Part shown: positions 26,638 to 34,081 of the stretch, one piece after another
How positions within the stretch are numbered: the first letter of the stretch is position 1
How the letters are laid out: each line of letters starts with the position of its first letter
Assembly (NCBI RefSeq): GCF_023660105.1
Contig: NZ_JAMHGA010000034.1
Span: 1-64,000, forward strand
DNA: 64,000 nucleotides
Origin: Desulfovibrio aminophilus
Lineage (GTDB): Bacteria; Desulfobacterota; Desulfovibrionia; Desulfovibrionales; Desulfovibrionaceae
Direction of reading: 5' to 3'
The notes under the pieces: generated by a model
What the model saw: only the letters and a program-made list of their open reading frames with translations
What the model was told of the DNA's origin: nothing
The model's database searches: none
Translations under genes and position numbers: made by a program

Positions 26638-27576
26638 ATGGCTGAACGGATTTTCGTCACCGGCGGCGCCGGGTACCTCGGCTCCACCCTGGTGCCCCTG
26701 CTGCTGGCCAAGGGATACGAGGTCACGGTCCTGGACAACCTCATGCACGGCCAGCACGTGCTGCTCGACTGCTGCGCCTGCAAGGGCTTCGAGTTCGTGA
26801 AGGGCGACATCTGCGACCACGCCCTGGTCAACGGGCTCATCGCCAGGCACGACGTGATCATCCCCCTGGCCGCCATCGTGGGCGCGCCCGCCTGCAAGCT
26901 GAACCCCACCCTGACGGACCTGGTCAACCGCGAGGCGCACCTGAACATCGTCAGGAACGCCTCCAAGGACCAGCTGGTCATCTTCCCGACCACCAACTCC
27001 GGCTACGGCATCGGCGAGAAGGACGCCTATTGCACCGAGGAGTCGCCCCTGCGGCCCATCTCCTCCTACGGCGTGACCAAGGTGGAGATCGAGAAGGCGT
27101 TCCTGGACAAGGGCGCGGCCATCACCTTCCGGCTGGCCACGGTCTTCGGCATGAGCCCGCGCATGCGCATGGACCTGCTGGTGAACGACTTCACCTACCG
27201 GGCCTTCAAGGACCGCAGCGTGATCCTCTTCGAGGACCACTTCCGGCGCAACTACATCCACGTGCGCGACGTGGCCAAGGCCTTCATGTTCGGCCTGGAC
27301 AACTATGACCGGATGAAGGGCCGGCCGTACAACGTGGGCCTGTCCTCGGCCAACCTGACCAAGCGCCAGCTGGCCGAGAAGATCAAGGAGCACGTGCCGG
27401 ACTTCTACATCCACTCCGCGCCCATCGGCGAGGACCCGGACAAGCGCGACTACCTCGTGAGCAACGACAAGATCGAGGCCCTGGGCTGGCGGCCCGAGCA
27501 CGGCCTGGACGACGGCATCAAGGAGCTGCTCAAGGGCTATCGCATCCTGAAACCGAACCGTTTCGCCAACGTGTGA
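26638..27576 (+). CDS. GDP-heptose C4 oxidase-like NAD-dependent epimerase/dehydratase (Cj1427-like)
   Basis: 312 aa from the ATG at 26638 (GGAG 8 nt upstream; the upstream in-frame ATG at 26557 gives an uncharacteristic extension). SDR Rossmann motif TGGAGYLGS (8-16); catalytic Y144-x3-K148 (YGVTK). Segments such as [41 protein letters not shown] and [14 protein letters not shown] recall the Campylobacter Cj1427 family, which oxidises C4 of GDP-D-glycero-alpha-D-manno-heptose (similarity judged from memory). First gene of an operon that makes that very GDP-sugar, which supports the call. Confidence 0.8.
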
Positions 27577-27581
27577 GACCC

Positions 27582-28862
27582 ATGTCCGGCTTTGAGAACG
27601 TCACGGCATACGTCCTGGCGGGCGGGTTCGGAACCCGCCTGCGCCAGGCCGTGCCCGACAGGCCCAAGGCCTTGGCGGAAATCCTGGGCCGCCCGTACAT
27701 CCACCACCTGCTGGACGGCCTGGCTCCGCTCGGCGTGCGGCGGGTGGTGCTCTGCACCGGGCACCTGGCGGACATGCTGGAGGACGGACTCGGGGCGGAC
27801 TACCGGGGCATGGAGCTGCTGTACTCCCGCGAGGACGCGCCCCTCGGCACGGGCGGCGCGCTGGCCCTGGCCTTCTCGCGCCATCCGGCGGAACTGGCCC
27901 TGTGCCTGAACGGCGACTCCCTGACCGACGCGGACCTGGGCGCGTATCTGCGCTGGTTCGAGCCGCGCCGGGAATCCGCCGCGCTGCTGCTGGCCCCGGT
28001 GGAGGACGCCGGGCGCTACGGCCGCGTGGAGCTGGACGGCGCGGGCCGCGTCACCGGATTCAGCGAGAAGGGCGCGGACGGCCCGGGGCTCATCAGCGCC
28101 GGAGTCTATCTCTTGCGGCCCGGGGCCCTGGTCCGGCTGACGCCCGGTGAACCGGCCTCCATCGAGCAGGACCTGTTCCCGGCCCTGGCGGCCGGGGGGG
28201 ACCTCTGCGGCTGGGCCACCTCGGCGCGTTTCCTGGACATCGGCACGCCGGAGTCCTACGCGGCGGCGGGGCGCTTCCTGCTCGGCCCCGACGGCGGGGG
28301 CGCGGCGGTGTTCCTGGACCGCGACGGCACGGTGATCGCGGACAAGCATTACCTGCACGACCCGGCCGGGGTGGAGCTGCTGCCCGGGGCCGCGGAGGGG
28401 TTGCGGCGCATGGCCGCGCTCGGCCTGCGGCTCGTGCTCGTCTCGAACCAGAGCGGGGTGGGGCGCGGCTATTTCGGCCGGGGCGACGTGGAGCGCGTGC
28501 ACGGGCGGCTCGTGGAACTGCTGGACGCCGAGGGCGTGCGTCTCGACGCCTTCTACATTTGTCCGCACGCGCCCGGGGAGGACTGCTCCTGCCGCAAGCC
28601 CAGGCCCGGCCTCGTGGAGCGGGCCTGCCGCGAACTCGGGCTGGACGCGGCGGCGAGCTTCGTCATCGGCGACAAGCCCTGCGACGTGGACCTGGGGCTG
28701 GCGGTGAAGGCCACGCCCATCCTCGTGACCACGGGCCGGGAGGCCCAAACCGCCGGGCCCGGGGAGCACCGGGCCGCGCACGTGGCCTCCGGGCTGGAGG
28801 CGGCGGCGGAACGCATCGAAACCATCCTGTCCGCGCGCGCGGGCGGCGGGGAGGGCGCATGA
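27582..28862 (+). CDS. Fused heptose-1-phosphate nucleotidyltransferase (HddC-like) and heptose-bisphosphate phosphatase (GmhB-like)
   Basis: 426 aa, two enzymes in one chain. Residues ~8-235: sugar-phosphate nucleotidyltransferase, with AGGFGTRLRQAVPDRPKA, LNGDSL (112-113 D/S metal site) and FLDIGTPESY. Residues ~242-426: HAD phosphatase with DRDGT (D246, D248), VSNQSG, and GmhB-type zinc ligands C327-x-H329 and C335-x-C337, ending in IGDKPCDVDLG. The HAD half would remove the 7-phosphate and the other half would attach GMP, giving GDP-heptose. In many bacteria these are separate proteins. The hddA start overlaps its stop by 4 bp. Confidence 0.88.
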   Translation: MSGFENVTAYVLAGGFGTRLRQAVPDRPKALAEILGRPYIHHLLDGLAPLGVRRVVLCTGHLADMLEDGLGADYRGMELLYSREDAPLGTGGALALAFSRHPAELALCLNGDSLTDADLGAYLRWFEPRRESAALLLAPVEDAGRYGRVELDGAGRVTGFSEKGADGPGLISAGVYLLRPGALVRLTPGEPASIEQDLFPALAAGGDLCGWATSARFLDIGTPESYAAAGRFLLGPDGGGAAVFLDRDGTVIADKHYLHDPAGVELLPGAAEGLRRMAALGLRLVLVSNQSGVGRGYFGRGDVERVHGRLVELLDAEGVRLDAFYICPHAPGEDCSCRKPRPGLVERACRELGLDAAASFVIGDKPCDVDLGLAVKATPILVTTGREAQTAGPGEHRAAHVASGLEAAAERIETILSARAGGGEGA

Positions 28863-32880: not shown

Positions 32881-32905
32881 ACATAGGCAGCAACGAGAGG
32901 TGGAC

Positions 32906-34081
32906 ATGGGCGCCAAGTGGCCGCTGATGGAAGACAACGTGACCCGCCAGGACCTGGACACGCTCATCGAGTTCCTGCGCGGCATGCCGCGCCTCACCCA
33001 GTCCGCGAACGTGCGCGCCTTCGAGCGCGAGTGGTCGGACTGGCTGGGCGTGCGGCACAGCGTGTTCGTGAACTCCGGGGCCTCGGCCAACCTCGTGACC
33101 ATGGGCGCATTGAAGCACCTGTATGGCGGGGGCGAGGTCATCGTGCCCACCCTCACCTGGGTTTCGGACATCGCCTCGGTGCTCCAGAACGGCTTCACGC
33201 CCGTGTTCGTGGACATCAACCCGCGCAACCTCTGCATGGACGAGGAGCAGGTCATCGCCAGGCTGAACGGGAAAACCCGCGCGGTGTTCCTGACCTACGT
33301 GCAGGGCTTCAACGGTCTTTCCGACCGGCTCCTCTCCGAGCTGGAGCAGCGCGGCGTCCCGCTCATCGAGGACGTCTGCGAGTCCCACGGGGCCGCCTTC
33401 CGGGGCCGGAAGCTCGGCTCCTTCGGCCTGGCCTCCAACTTCTCCTTCTACTTCGCCCACCACATGAGCACGGTGGAGGGCGGCATGGTCTGCACCAACG
33501 ACGACGCCTTTCACGACGCCATCCGCATGTTCCGCTCCCACGGCATGGTGCGCGAGGCCGAGAGCCCGGAGCTGCGCGCCCGCTACGCGGCCGAGAACCC
33601 GGACCTCTCCCCGGACTTCATCTTTGCCTTTCCGGCCTTCAACGTGCGCTCCACCGAGATCAACGCCGTGCTGGGCCGCAGCCAGCTCAAGCGCCTGGAC
33701 GCCAACAACCTCCGCCGCCGGGAGAACTTCGAGCTGTTCCTGAGGCACATCGACCCGGGGAAATACCGCACGGACTTCGATCTCGAAGGCAGCTGCAACT
33801 ATGCCTTCAACCTCGTGCTGCGGAAGCCCGACCCGGCCCTGCGCGACCGCCTGGAGGCGGTCATGCGCGCCAACGGCGTGGAGTTCCGGCGCGGCAGCGC
33901 GGGCGGGGGCAACCAACTCCGGCAGCACTACCTGAAGGGCGTCGTGCCCGACGGCGCATGGGCCGGGTACCCGGAGGTGGAGCACATCCACTTCTTCGGC
34001 TACTACATCGGCAACTATCCGTCGCTCTCGGCCGAGCGCATCCTCGAACTCTGCCGGGTGCTGAACTCCGTGGAGGCCTAG
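32906..34081 (+). CDS. ColD-like PLP/PMP-dependent keto-sugar 3-dehydratase (DegT/DnrJ/EryC1 fold)
   Basis: 391 aa from the ATG at 32906. DegT fold with NSGASANL, PTLTWVSDIASVLQNG, and Asp in PLIEDVCESHGA. The residue that normally binds PLP (SFxxxK) is His: S180-F-Y-F-A-H185-H-M-S-T-V-E-G-G. The same Lys-to-His change defines ColD, which removes the 3-OH from GDP-4-keto-6-deoxymannose using PLP and glutamate. A simple aminotransferase role is therefore unlikely. With a GDP-4-keto-heptose from the first gene of the operon, the product would be a GDP-4-keto-3-deoxyheptose. Confidence 0.85.
   Translation: MGAKWPLMEDNVTRQDLDTLIEFLRGMPRLTQSANVRAFEREWSDWLGVRHSVFVNSGASANLVTMGALKHLYGGGEVIVPTLTWVSDIASVLQNGFTPVFVDINPRNLCMDEEQVIARLNGKTRAVFLTYVQGFNGLSDRLLSELEQRGVPLIEDVCESHGAAFRGRKLGSFGLASNFSFYFAHHMSTVEGGMVCTNDDAFHDAIRMFRSHGMVREAESPELRARYAAENPDLSPDFIFAFPAFNVRSTEINAVLGRSQLKRLDANNLRRRENFELFLRHIDPGKYRTDFDLEGSCNYAFNLVLRKPDPALRDRLEAVMRANGVEFRRGSAGGGNQLRQHYLKGVVPDGAWAGYPEVEHIHFFGYYIGNYPSLSAERILELCRVLNSVEA

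Follow-up and report, generated by a model that had tools for sequence, protein, structure and literature searches.

A gene set of Desulfovibrio aminophilus that probably directs synthesis of a C4-branched GDP-3-deoxy-heptose

Sugars with branches occur in antibiotics and, as hexoses, in lipopolysaccharides. Two-subunit enzymes of the alphaKADH2 type (AviB1/AviB2, Pau11/Pau12, KbDH and the aldgamycin enzyme) transfer a two-carbon unit from pyruvate to a ketone, as shown or proposed according to PMC12247030 and PMC4753412; the former also attributes to the split-gene transketolases of miharamycin and amipurimycin a proposed hydroxyacetyl (C2) branching of a keto sugar, and the 13 putative branching sequences of this kind that it cites are all from Streptomycetes, none of them tested in vitro. 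For heptoses activated with guanosine diphosphate (GDP), two reports on Campylobacter jejuni state that Cj1427, whose substrate is GDP-D-glycero-manno-heptose, makes GDP-D-glycero-3-deoxy-4-keto-heptose in vitro together with the HS:5 C3-dehydratase (PMC10680097), and that HS:5 enzymes make GDP-3,6-dideoxy-heptose (PMC10440746). Here we analyse an operon at positions 26638-34081 of a 64,000-nucleotide stretch of DNA from Desulfovibrio aminophilus (the window, part of contig 34, NZ_JAMHGA010000034.1, of a 3.54-Mb genome that is 99.99% complete). Judged from its genes and from those of its relatives, this operon probably makes a GDP-activated 3-deoxy-heptose bearing a two-carbon branch on C4.

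Seven genes run here in one direction and are nearly contiguous, with gaps of at most 25 bases or short overlaps. Both the open reading frame (ORF) positions and the Pfam families bear out the co-directional set described in the original prediction, and the family labels of all seven proteins hold at Pfam level (in operon order: epimerase-type short-chain dehydrogenase/reductase (SDR), nucleotidyltransferase plus HAD phosphatase, GHMP kinase, E1_dh, Transket_pyr/Transketolase_C, SDR, and DegT). The operon does not end at 34081, as had been thought: an eighth gene, for a B12-binding radical S-adenosylmethionine (radical-SAM) enzyme, begins 2 bases past the stop of the seventh, a position that it also occupies in relatives, where it is intact. 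In the following list, ThDP is thiamine diphosphate, PLP is pyridoxal phosphate, and E1 denotes the thiamine-dependent component of 2-oxo acid dehydrogenases.

26638..27576, + strand: GDP-heptose C4-dehydrogenase, Cj1427 type (PDB 6vo6, E=3.8e-140; 202/311 residues identical)
27573..28862, + strand: HddC-like nucleotidyltransferase (N-terminal; PF00483, residues 13-236) fused to GmhB-like HAD phosphatase (C-terminal; GmhB NF006506, residues 245-416)
28859..29926, + strand: HddA-like GHMP heptose-7-phosphate kinase (NF049969, E=8.4e-42; PDB 4n3o, HddA, E=2.2e-35)
29930..30904, + strand: E1 alpha, ThDP-binding subunit of the proposed sugar-branching enzyme (PF00676, E=2.6e-64; same neighbours in relatives)
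30908..31963, + strand: E1 beta of the proposed sugar-branching enzyme (PF02779/PF02780; Glu85 and His154 conserved)
31960..32880, + strand: Fcl-like SDR, a proposed reductase or possibly epimerase whose target would be the branch carbonyl or C5 (GDP-fucose synthase model NF047922, 361.9 of 500 bits; PDB 8du0, E=2.4e-85)
32906..34081, + strand: ColD-like PLP 3-dehydratase with active-site His (nearest PDB structure ColD, 2gms, E=1.2e-40 over residues 24-340)
34084..35620, + strand: B12-binding radical-SAM enzyme, interrupted (intact as one ORF in the relative L034, with PF02310 and PF04055)

The strongest of these labels is that of the C4-dehydrogenase, which is 65% identical to 6vo6; this structure we take to be Cj1427, although the entry itself is titled sugar-nucleotide epimerase/dehydratase. 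The best named match of the kinase is the HddA model NF049969 (143.8 of 600 bits) and that of the phosphatase half is GmhB (152.6 of 178 bits), the HAD domain passing two NCBIfam subfamily-domain cut-offs. On their own, the HddA-, HddC- and GmhB-like proteins would not prove a heptose. In the proposed scheme, sedoheptulose 7-phosphate would be isomerised by a GmhA encoded outside the operon (a GmhA-like isomerase elsewhere in the window genome scores 189.8 bits against a cut-off of 209.45), and the activated heptose would be oxidised at C4 by the Cj1427-type enzyme and lose its C3 hydroxyl through the ColD-like PLP enzyme. E1 alpha/beta would decarboxylate pyruvate on ThDP and deliver the acetyl carbanion to the C4 ketone, producing a tertiary alcohol with an acetyl branch, the ketone of which would be reduced by the Fcl-like SDR; the radical-SAM enzyme would make a further change, perhaps on the C6-C7 side, which may be lost in the window strain. 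We infer every one of these reactions, and likewise the heptose start, pyruvate as donor, C4 as the site, the stereochemistry, the order of steps and the use of the product in a surface glycan.

The main evidence is comparative. A scan of contigs with an alignment of E1 beta gave 65 loci, all but one of them (L126) with an E1 beta ORF; of the remaining 64, the 40 with at least 4 kb on each side form the well-flanked set, from which the other 24 were left out. A gene for an enzyme forming a C4 ketone (at least 45% identity) stands in 36 of the 40, as a Cj1427-type dehydrogenase in 24 and as a 4,6-dehydratase of the GDP-mannose-dehydratase type in 12. At this limit the two kinds never occur together (0/40), L082 having the dehydrogenase and a 40% dehydratase-like gene. 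HddA is present in every one of the 36, and a dehydratase with His at the PLP site in 34. The original prediction had suggested a search of genomes for the same gene set, and complete sets (E1, HddA, ketone former and His-type dehydratase) were indeed found in 36 of the 64 loci, at any flank length; by record and tree labels they span twelve phyla, and almost all come from metagenome bins. One carrier available in culture is Skermanella aerolata, whose locus (L113) is of the dehydratase type. Within the taxonomic order of the window, its gene order recurs in seven loci of one genus (L034-L040), that of L039 ending after Fcl. Across all loci, 51 DegT-family ORFs were scored, with His in 44, Lys in 5, and no site in 2 fragments. 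The His-type dehydratases comprise a cysteine-free and a cysteine-motif class, set by sequence pattern only, and both accompany the dehydrogenase (14 and 9, respectively) as well as the 4,6-dehydratase (11 and 4). In the E1 tree, from which L116 (198 residues) was left out, 14 of the 16 dehydratase-type rows lie in one clade, so this version has few independent origins. E1 matches at E 1e-100 occur in 67 of 395 genomes, the neighbouring genes being read only for those genomes that entered by other searches.

The dehydrogenase served as the starting point of a second survey, whose loci were not chosen by E1 and all lie in the window's phylum. Within the order, the enzyme is found (E 1e-80 or better) in 20 of 297 genomes, two of them (G274 and G229) cut by contig ends; operon-type E1 lies close by in 13 of the 18 uncut loci, a split transketolase in four (G087, G190, G191 and G211, two of these calls having been checked with NCBIfam), and neither in one (G224). 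Across the phylum it is found in 17 of 395 genomes, of which two were already counted and three are cut (L215, L219 and L220). All 12 remaining loci contain a two-subunit ThDP enzyme: E1 in L216 (60 and 72% identical) and L217 (35 and 43%), a split transketolase in L209, L210, L212, L213, L218 and L223, and a divergent E1-like pair in L211, L214, L221 and L222, examples of which were checked with Pfam. A two-subunit ThDP enzyme thus stands near the dehydrogenase in 29 of 30 uncut loci (15 E1, 10 split transketolase, 4 divergent E1-like pair), or in 29/35 if the five contig-end loci left out of this count (G274, G229, G446, G411 and G466) are taken as negatives. Many genomes are in both the 40-locus and the 30-locus sets, and related strains are not independent. 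Chance neighbourhood was rejected: the window genome has 9 PF02780 matches, and from the gene density of this one genome about 5% of genes would be expected within 10 kb of one, against 29/30 observed.

In G087 the split transketolase (L199:10464-12220) occupies the place of E1 between HddA and Fcl, the Fcl, ColD-like and radical-SAM genes being kept, and when the ThDP kinds are mapped on a tree of 50 dehydrogenases, the label for transketolase has to change 8 times, with well-supported branches forcing at least 7 of these. The gene content, the His at the PLP site, the conserved residues of the ThDP enzyme, the absence of an E2 component and the recurrent swapping of parts are direct observations. 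On this comparison, the most constant parts are those predicted to provide heptose activation, a C4 ketone and ThDP-dependent C2 transfer, while the kind of ketone former, of 3-dehydratase and of ThDP enzyme is exchangeable, as would be expected of a ThDP enzyme whose substrate is the C4 ketone or the 3-deoxy compound derived from it.

Some transketolase loci have a different make-up. In L200 (G190), L201:12348-14646 and L202 (G191 and G211), C4-dehydrogenase, HddC/GmhB, HddA and radical-SAM genes are followed by an RmlC-like epimerase and the split transketolase, and no ColD, Fcl or E1 matches were seen. A DJ-1/PfpI gene lies near the divergent E1-like pair in L211, L214, L221 and L222 (by Pfam in L214 and L222), and L214 also has an altronate/galactarate dehydratase-like gene near it; these four divergent-pair loci perhaps represent another branch chemistry. 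On contig 13 of the window genome itself (L225:384-4854), a split transketolase lies near an SDR that shares 33% identity with the C4-dehydrogenase, and the two may mark a further locus for sugar branching.

The eighth gene bears on where the branch is placed. In L034 its relative is a single ORF of 491 residues with B12-binding (PF02310) and radical-SAM (PF04055) domains. Residues 158-426 of this relative match best, among PDB structures, AprD4 (E=9.2e-20), a radical-SAM diol dehydratase (PMC5461906), which we treat as no more than a lead; they also match the methyltransferase TokK (E=8.5e-07). The three cysteines of the CxxxCxxC motif are invariant in 16 aligned relatives. In the window the gene is split in two, the pieces having 79% and 87% identity to the relative, and its frame is lost at a direct repeat of 30 bases (34805-34834 and 34866-34895, start-to-start spacing 61); a short A-rich stretch lies between the two copies. 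The gene is present in 37 of 41 loci with the dehydrogenase but in only 1 of 12 with the 4,6-dehydratase, the exception being L105 (Fisher tests on such locus gene content ignore kinship). Since a 4,6-dehydratase already removes O6, and its loci mostly lack the radical-SAM gene, the enzyme may act on the C6-C7 side of the sugar.

This same pattern would fit a ThDP carboligation with another acceptor, such as a C6/C7 carbonyl formed after radical-SAM dehydration, with lengthening of the chain; another donor, acetoin or a different 2-oxo acid, is also conceivable, E1 donors not being readable from sequence. Two points speak against another acceptor: the C4 ketone is the carbonyl that both Cj1427-type and 4,6-dehydratase-type enzymes would form, and the 4,6-dehydratase loci keep E1, mostly without radical SAM. 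We regard such a change of acceptor or donor as unlikely, though it is the alternative that fares best.

Slightly less likely again is that the product is an unbranched GDP-3-deoxy-heptose, a counterpart of GDP-colitose: C4 would be oxidised and the C3 hydroxyl removed, the Fcl-like protein would then epimerise C5 and reduce C4, and E1 would serve elsewhere. The resemblance of the Fcl-like protein to GDP-fucose synthases favours it, as does the in vitro formation of such compounds by Cj1427, a C. jejuni C3-dehydratase and C4-reductases (PMC10680097). It leaves unexplained the ThDP pairs of 29/30 dehydrogenase loci, the split transketolase in the E1 place of G087, and the lack in the window genome of any E2 that would give E1 another job. 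It is also at odds with the distribution of the Fcl-like gene (at least 35% identity), which is absent from 11 of the 24 well-flanked loci of the dehydrogenase type, other reductase families not having been searched. A C4 reductase is unneeded when carbon-carbon bond formation consumes the ketone. Where kept, the Fcl-like protein likely reduces the branch ketone, by analogy with yersiniose; it possibly epimerises C5. The reaction series first put forward for GDP-heptose, namely oxidation at C4, 3-deoxygenation, C2 branching and reduction, therefore stands in part: comparison favours the GDP-heptose start, the C4 ketone, the 3-deoxygenation and a ThDP enzyme tied to the ketone, but reduction is not a constant feature.

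The 3-deoxygenation depends on the DegT protein, which was called ColD-like because of the His at its PLP active site. This His replaces the PLP-binding Lys of aminotransferases and aligns with the site of the ColD substitutions in structures 2r0t and 3b8x; a Lys-type aminotransferase, leading to an amino-heptose, was rejected on this account. Among the order's 297 genomes, 11 encode this protein at an E-value of 1e-60, and all 11 also have the C4-dehydrogenase. The heptose C3-dehydratases of C. jejuni show 62-67% identity to ColD (PMC10440746); the window protein, with a match to ColD of E=1.2e-40 only, is not so close, and by sequence is ColD-like and not a ColD orthologue.

Whether E1 alpha/beta could belong to an ordinary dehydrogenase turns chiefly on E2. 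A search with PF00198 found no match in the 99.99% complete window genome (the control search was positive in 10 of 14 genomes), which leaves E1 without a dehydrogenase complex of which it could be part. E2 is also absent from 11 of 13 other genomes carrying operon-type E1, three of these (G250, G255 and G287) being only 81-87% complete; in the remaining two, G212 and G195, it lies on contigs other than that of operon-type E1 and less than 3 kb from a different E1. Separate alpha and beta chains with conserved catalytic residues give the operon enzyme an alphaKADH2-type architecture. Glu85 and His154 of E1 beta, presumably catalytic by comparison with pyruvate dehydrogenase (PDH), are kept in 45/45 rows from sugar contexts and 7/7 of the PDH kind. 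The pocket differs: Gln54 in all 45 sugar-context rows against Glu in all seven PDH-kind rows, His106 and Arg108 against Leu/Ile and Phe, and Trp148 against Ile/Arg/Val. A middle group of 8 rows from other contexts has His106, Arg108 and Trp148 but not Gln54, so these three residues alone do not mark the sugar type. Neither HddA nor the dehydrogenase was seen in any of eight less closely related E1 loci, L056-L063 (several have a short flank), and two of them (G230 and G147) stand beside E2; L047-L055 have no HddA either, matches there being limited to weak (25-27%) dehydrogenase-family SDRs in L049, a Lys-type DegT in L047, and weak DegT and Fcl matches in L053.

That E1 alpha/beta is the usual E1 of a pyruvate, acetoin or branched-chain dehydrogenase, placed in the operon by accident, is thus highly improbable. 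This reading was rejected for want of an E2 in the genome, and although the best NCBIfam matches of the two chains are PDH E1 alpha and beta, both fall below the curated cut-offs (304.3 of 393.85 and 304.0 of 321 bits), and sugar-nucleotide genes adjoin E1 in 36/40 loci, as against no HddA or dehydrogenase in any of the eight distant ones.

The E1 family has other settings. The window genome, although without E2, has a second E1 alpha/beta pair on contig 5 (L165:6078-8117). In Desulfovibrio sp. Im510_bin59 (L046/L092) the two chains are fused in one ORF of 679 residues adjoining a GDP-mannose-dehydratase-type enzyme, an RfbH-like dehydratase and Fcl-like pieces, with no HddA match in 20 kb; and in L047 and L100-L102 related E1 pairs stand beside SPASM-like radical-SAM genes with no heptose gene matches, which is another use of this family.

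For the branched product that we favour, several observations are unhelpful. None of the seven operon proteins passes an NCBIfam equivalog cut-off, so their names are family-level. The nucleotidyltransferase half prefers a mannose-1-phosphate guanylyltransferase model (140.5 of 440 bits) to HddC NF049965 (104.2 of 300), and the match of the ColD-like protein to ColD is a remote one. Enzymes of the Fcl family normally act by reducing C4 ketones, which would compete with branching; the Fcl-like gene is kept in 13 of the 24 dehydrogenase-type and 11 of the 12 dehydratase-type E1 loci. A C4-ketone former is missing from four of the 40 E1 loci, and two of the other 36 lack the His-type dehydratase. 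No ThDP enzyme was found beside the dehydrogenase of G224 on its 14.9-kb contig, nor on the existing side of the five contig-end loci. By Pfam, none of the ten neighbouring genes (18477-41581) encodes a glycosyltransferase. The radical-SAM gene is broken in the window strain, a break that may be real or an assembly fault.

Taken more broadly, the loci could belong to a widespread, undescribed family of C-branched GDP-heptose pathways, a proposal we put forward tentatively, rating it at slightly below even. Its members would share an HddA/HddC core and a C4-ketone former, and three swappable kinds of ThDP enzyme (E1 alpha/beta, split transketolase and the divergent E1-like pair) would install different branches (acetyl, glycoloyl or other). 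Outside Campylobacter, the Cj1427-type dehydrogenase would then mainly serve branching, with a B12/radical-SAM enzyme as its partner for remodelling the C6-C7 side chain, which the 4,6-dehydratase versions already deoxygenate.

The ten neighbouring genes are by Pfam regulators, transporters, a metallo-hydrolase, a DUF554 protein and an RND efflux system, with one unmatched. Two further features flank the operon:

26155..26241, + strand: tRNA-Leu (CAA) (ARAGORN), 396 bases upstream of the operon
35633..35692, no strand: inverted repeat with two 30-base arms, a probable terminator between the operon and the convergent efflux gene at 35715-37190 (PF02321)

A promoter scan gave 0 sites. tRNA genes are usual insertion sites for mobile DNA; despite the tRNA-Leu just upstream, an alien island by composition was rejected, the GC content of the operon (0.68-0.71) being similar to that of its flanks.

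Among known systems, the GDP-colitose pathway (GMD, ColD, ColC) has in common with the operon a GDP sugar, a ColD-type dehydratase and an Fcl-like final enzyme; it differs in that it starts from a hexose, uses a 4,6-dehydratase instead of a C4-dehydrogenase, and has no ThDP step. The original prediction took yersiniose as its precedent, and the likeness holds for the chemistry, a C2 branch at C4 of a 3-deoxy-4-keto sugar nucleotide followed by reduction of the branch. It does not hold for the enzyme: yersiniose is built on a cytidine diphosphate (CDP)-hexose by YerE, which PMC12247030 and PMC4753412 describe as a single-chain thiamine pyrophosphate (TPP)-dependent flavoprotein of the decarboxylase superfamily, a ThDP superfamily other than that of E1, whereas the operon by Pfam has a two-chain E1. 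The alphaKADH2 branching enzymes, with the same two-subunit alpha/beta E1 architecture, are a nearer precedent than YerE, but they serve antibiotics and mainly specialised metabolites, and the word 'heptose' is absent from the review (PMC12247030). The miharamycin and amipurimycin transketolases have the same proposed role as the split transketolases of G087, G190, G191, G211 and the six phylum loci. Closest in substrate is the C. jejuni capsule pathway, which according to PMC10680097 shares the GDP-heptose start, a Cj1427-type C4-dehydrogenase and a PLP C3-dehydratase, and differs in its epimerases and C4-reductases; the 20 enzymes listed in the abstract of that paper include no ThDP and no radical-SAM enzyme. 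The earlier statement that no described pathway combines these steps on a heptose consequently survives for branching, no description of ThDP branching of a GDP-heptose having been found in the open-licence literature, but not for C4 oxidation and 3-deoxygenation, both carried out in vitro (PMC10680097 and PMC10440746). What looks new here is only heptose branching by a thiamine enzyme, together with the natural gene set for it. If the assignment is right, branched GDP-heptoses would constitute a new kind of activated sugar, assembled with interchangeable thiamine enzymes; E1 enzymes of two subunits and split transketolases would then act in sugar branching in Gram-negative bacteria and offer new catalysts for tertiary alcohols.

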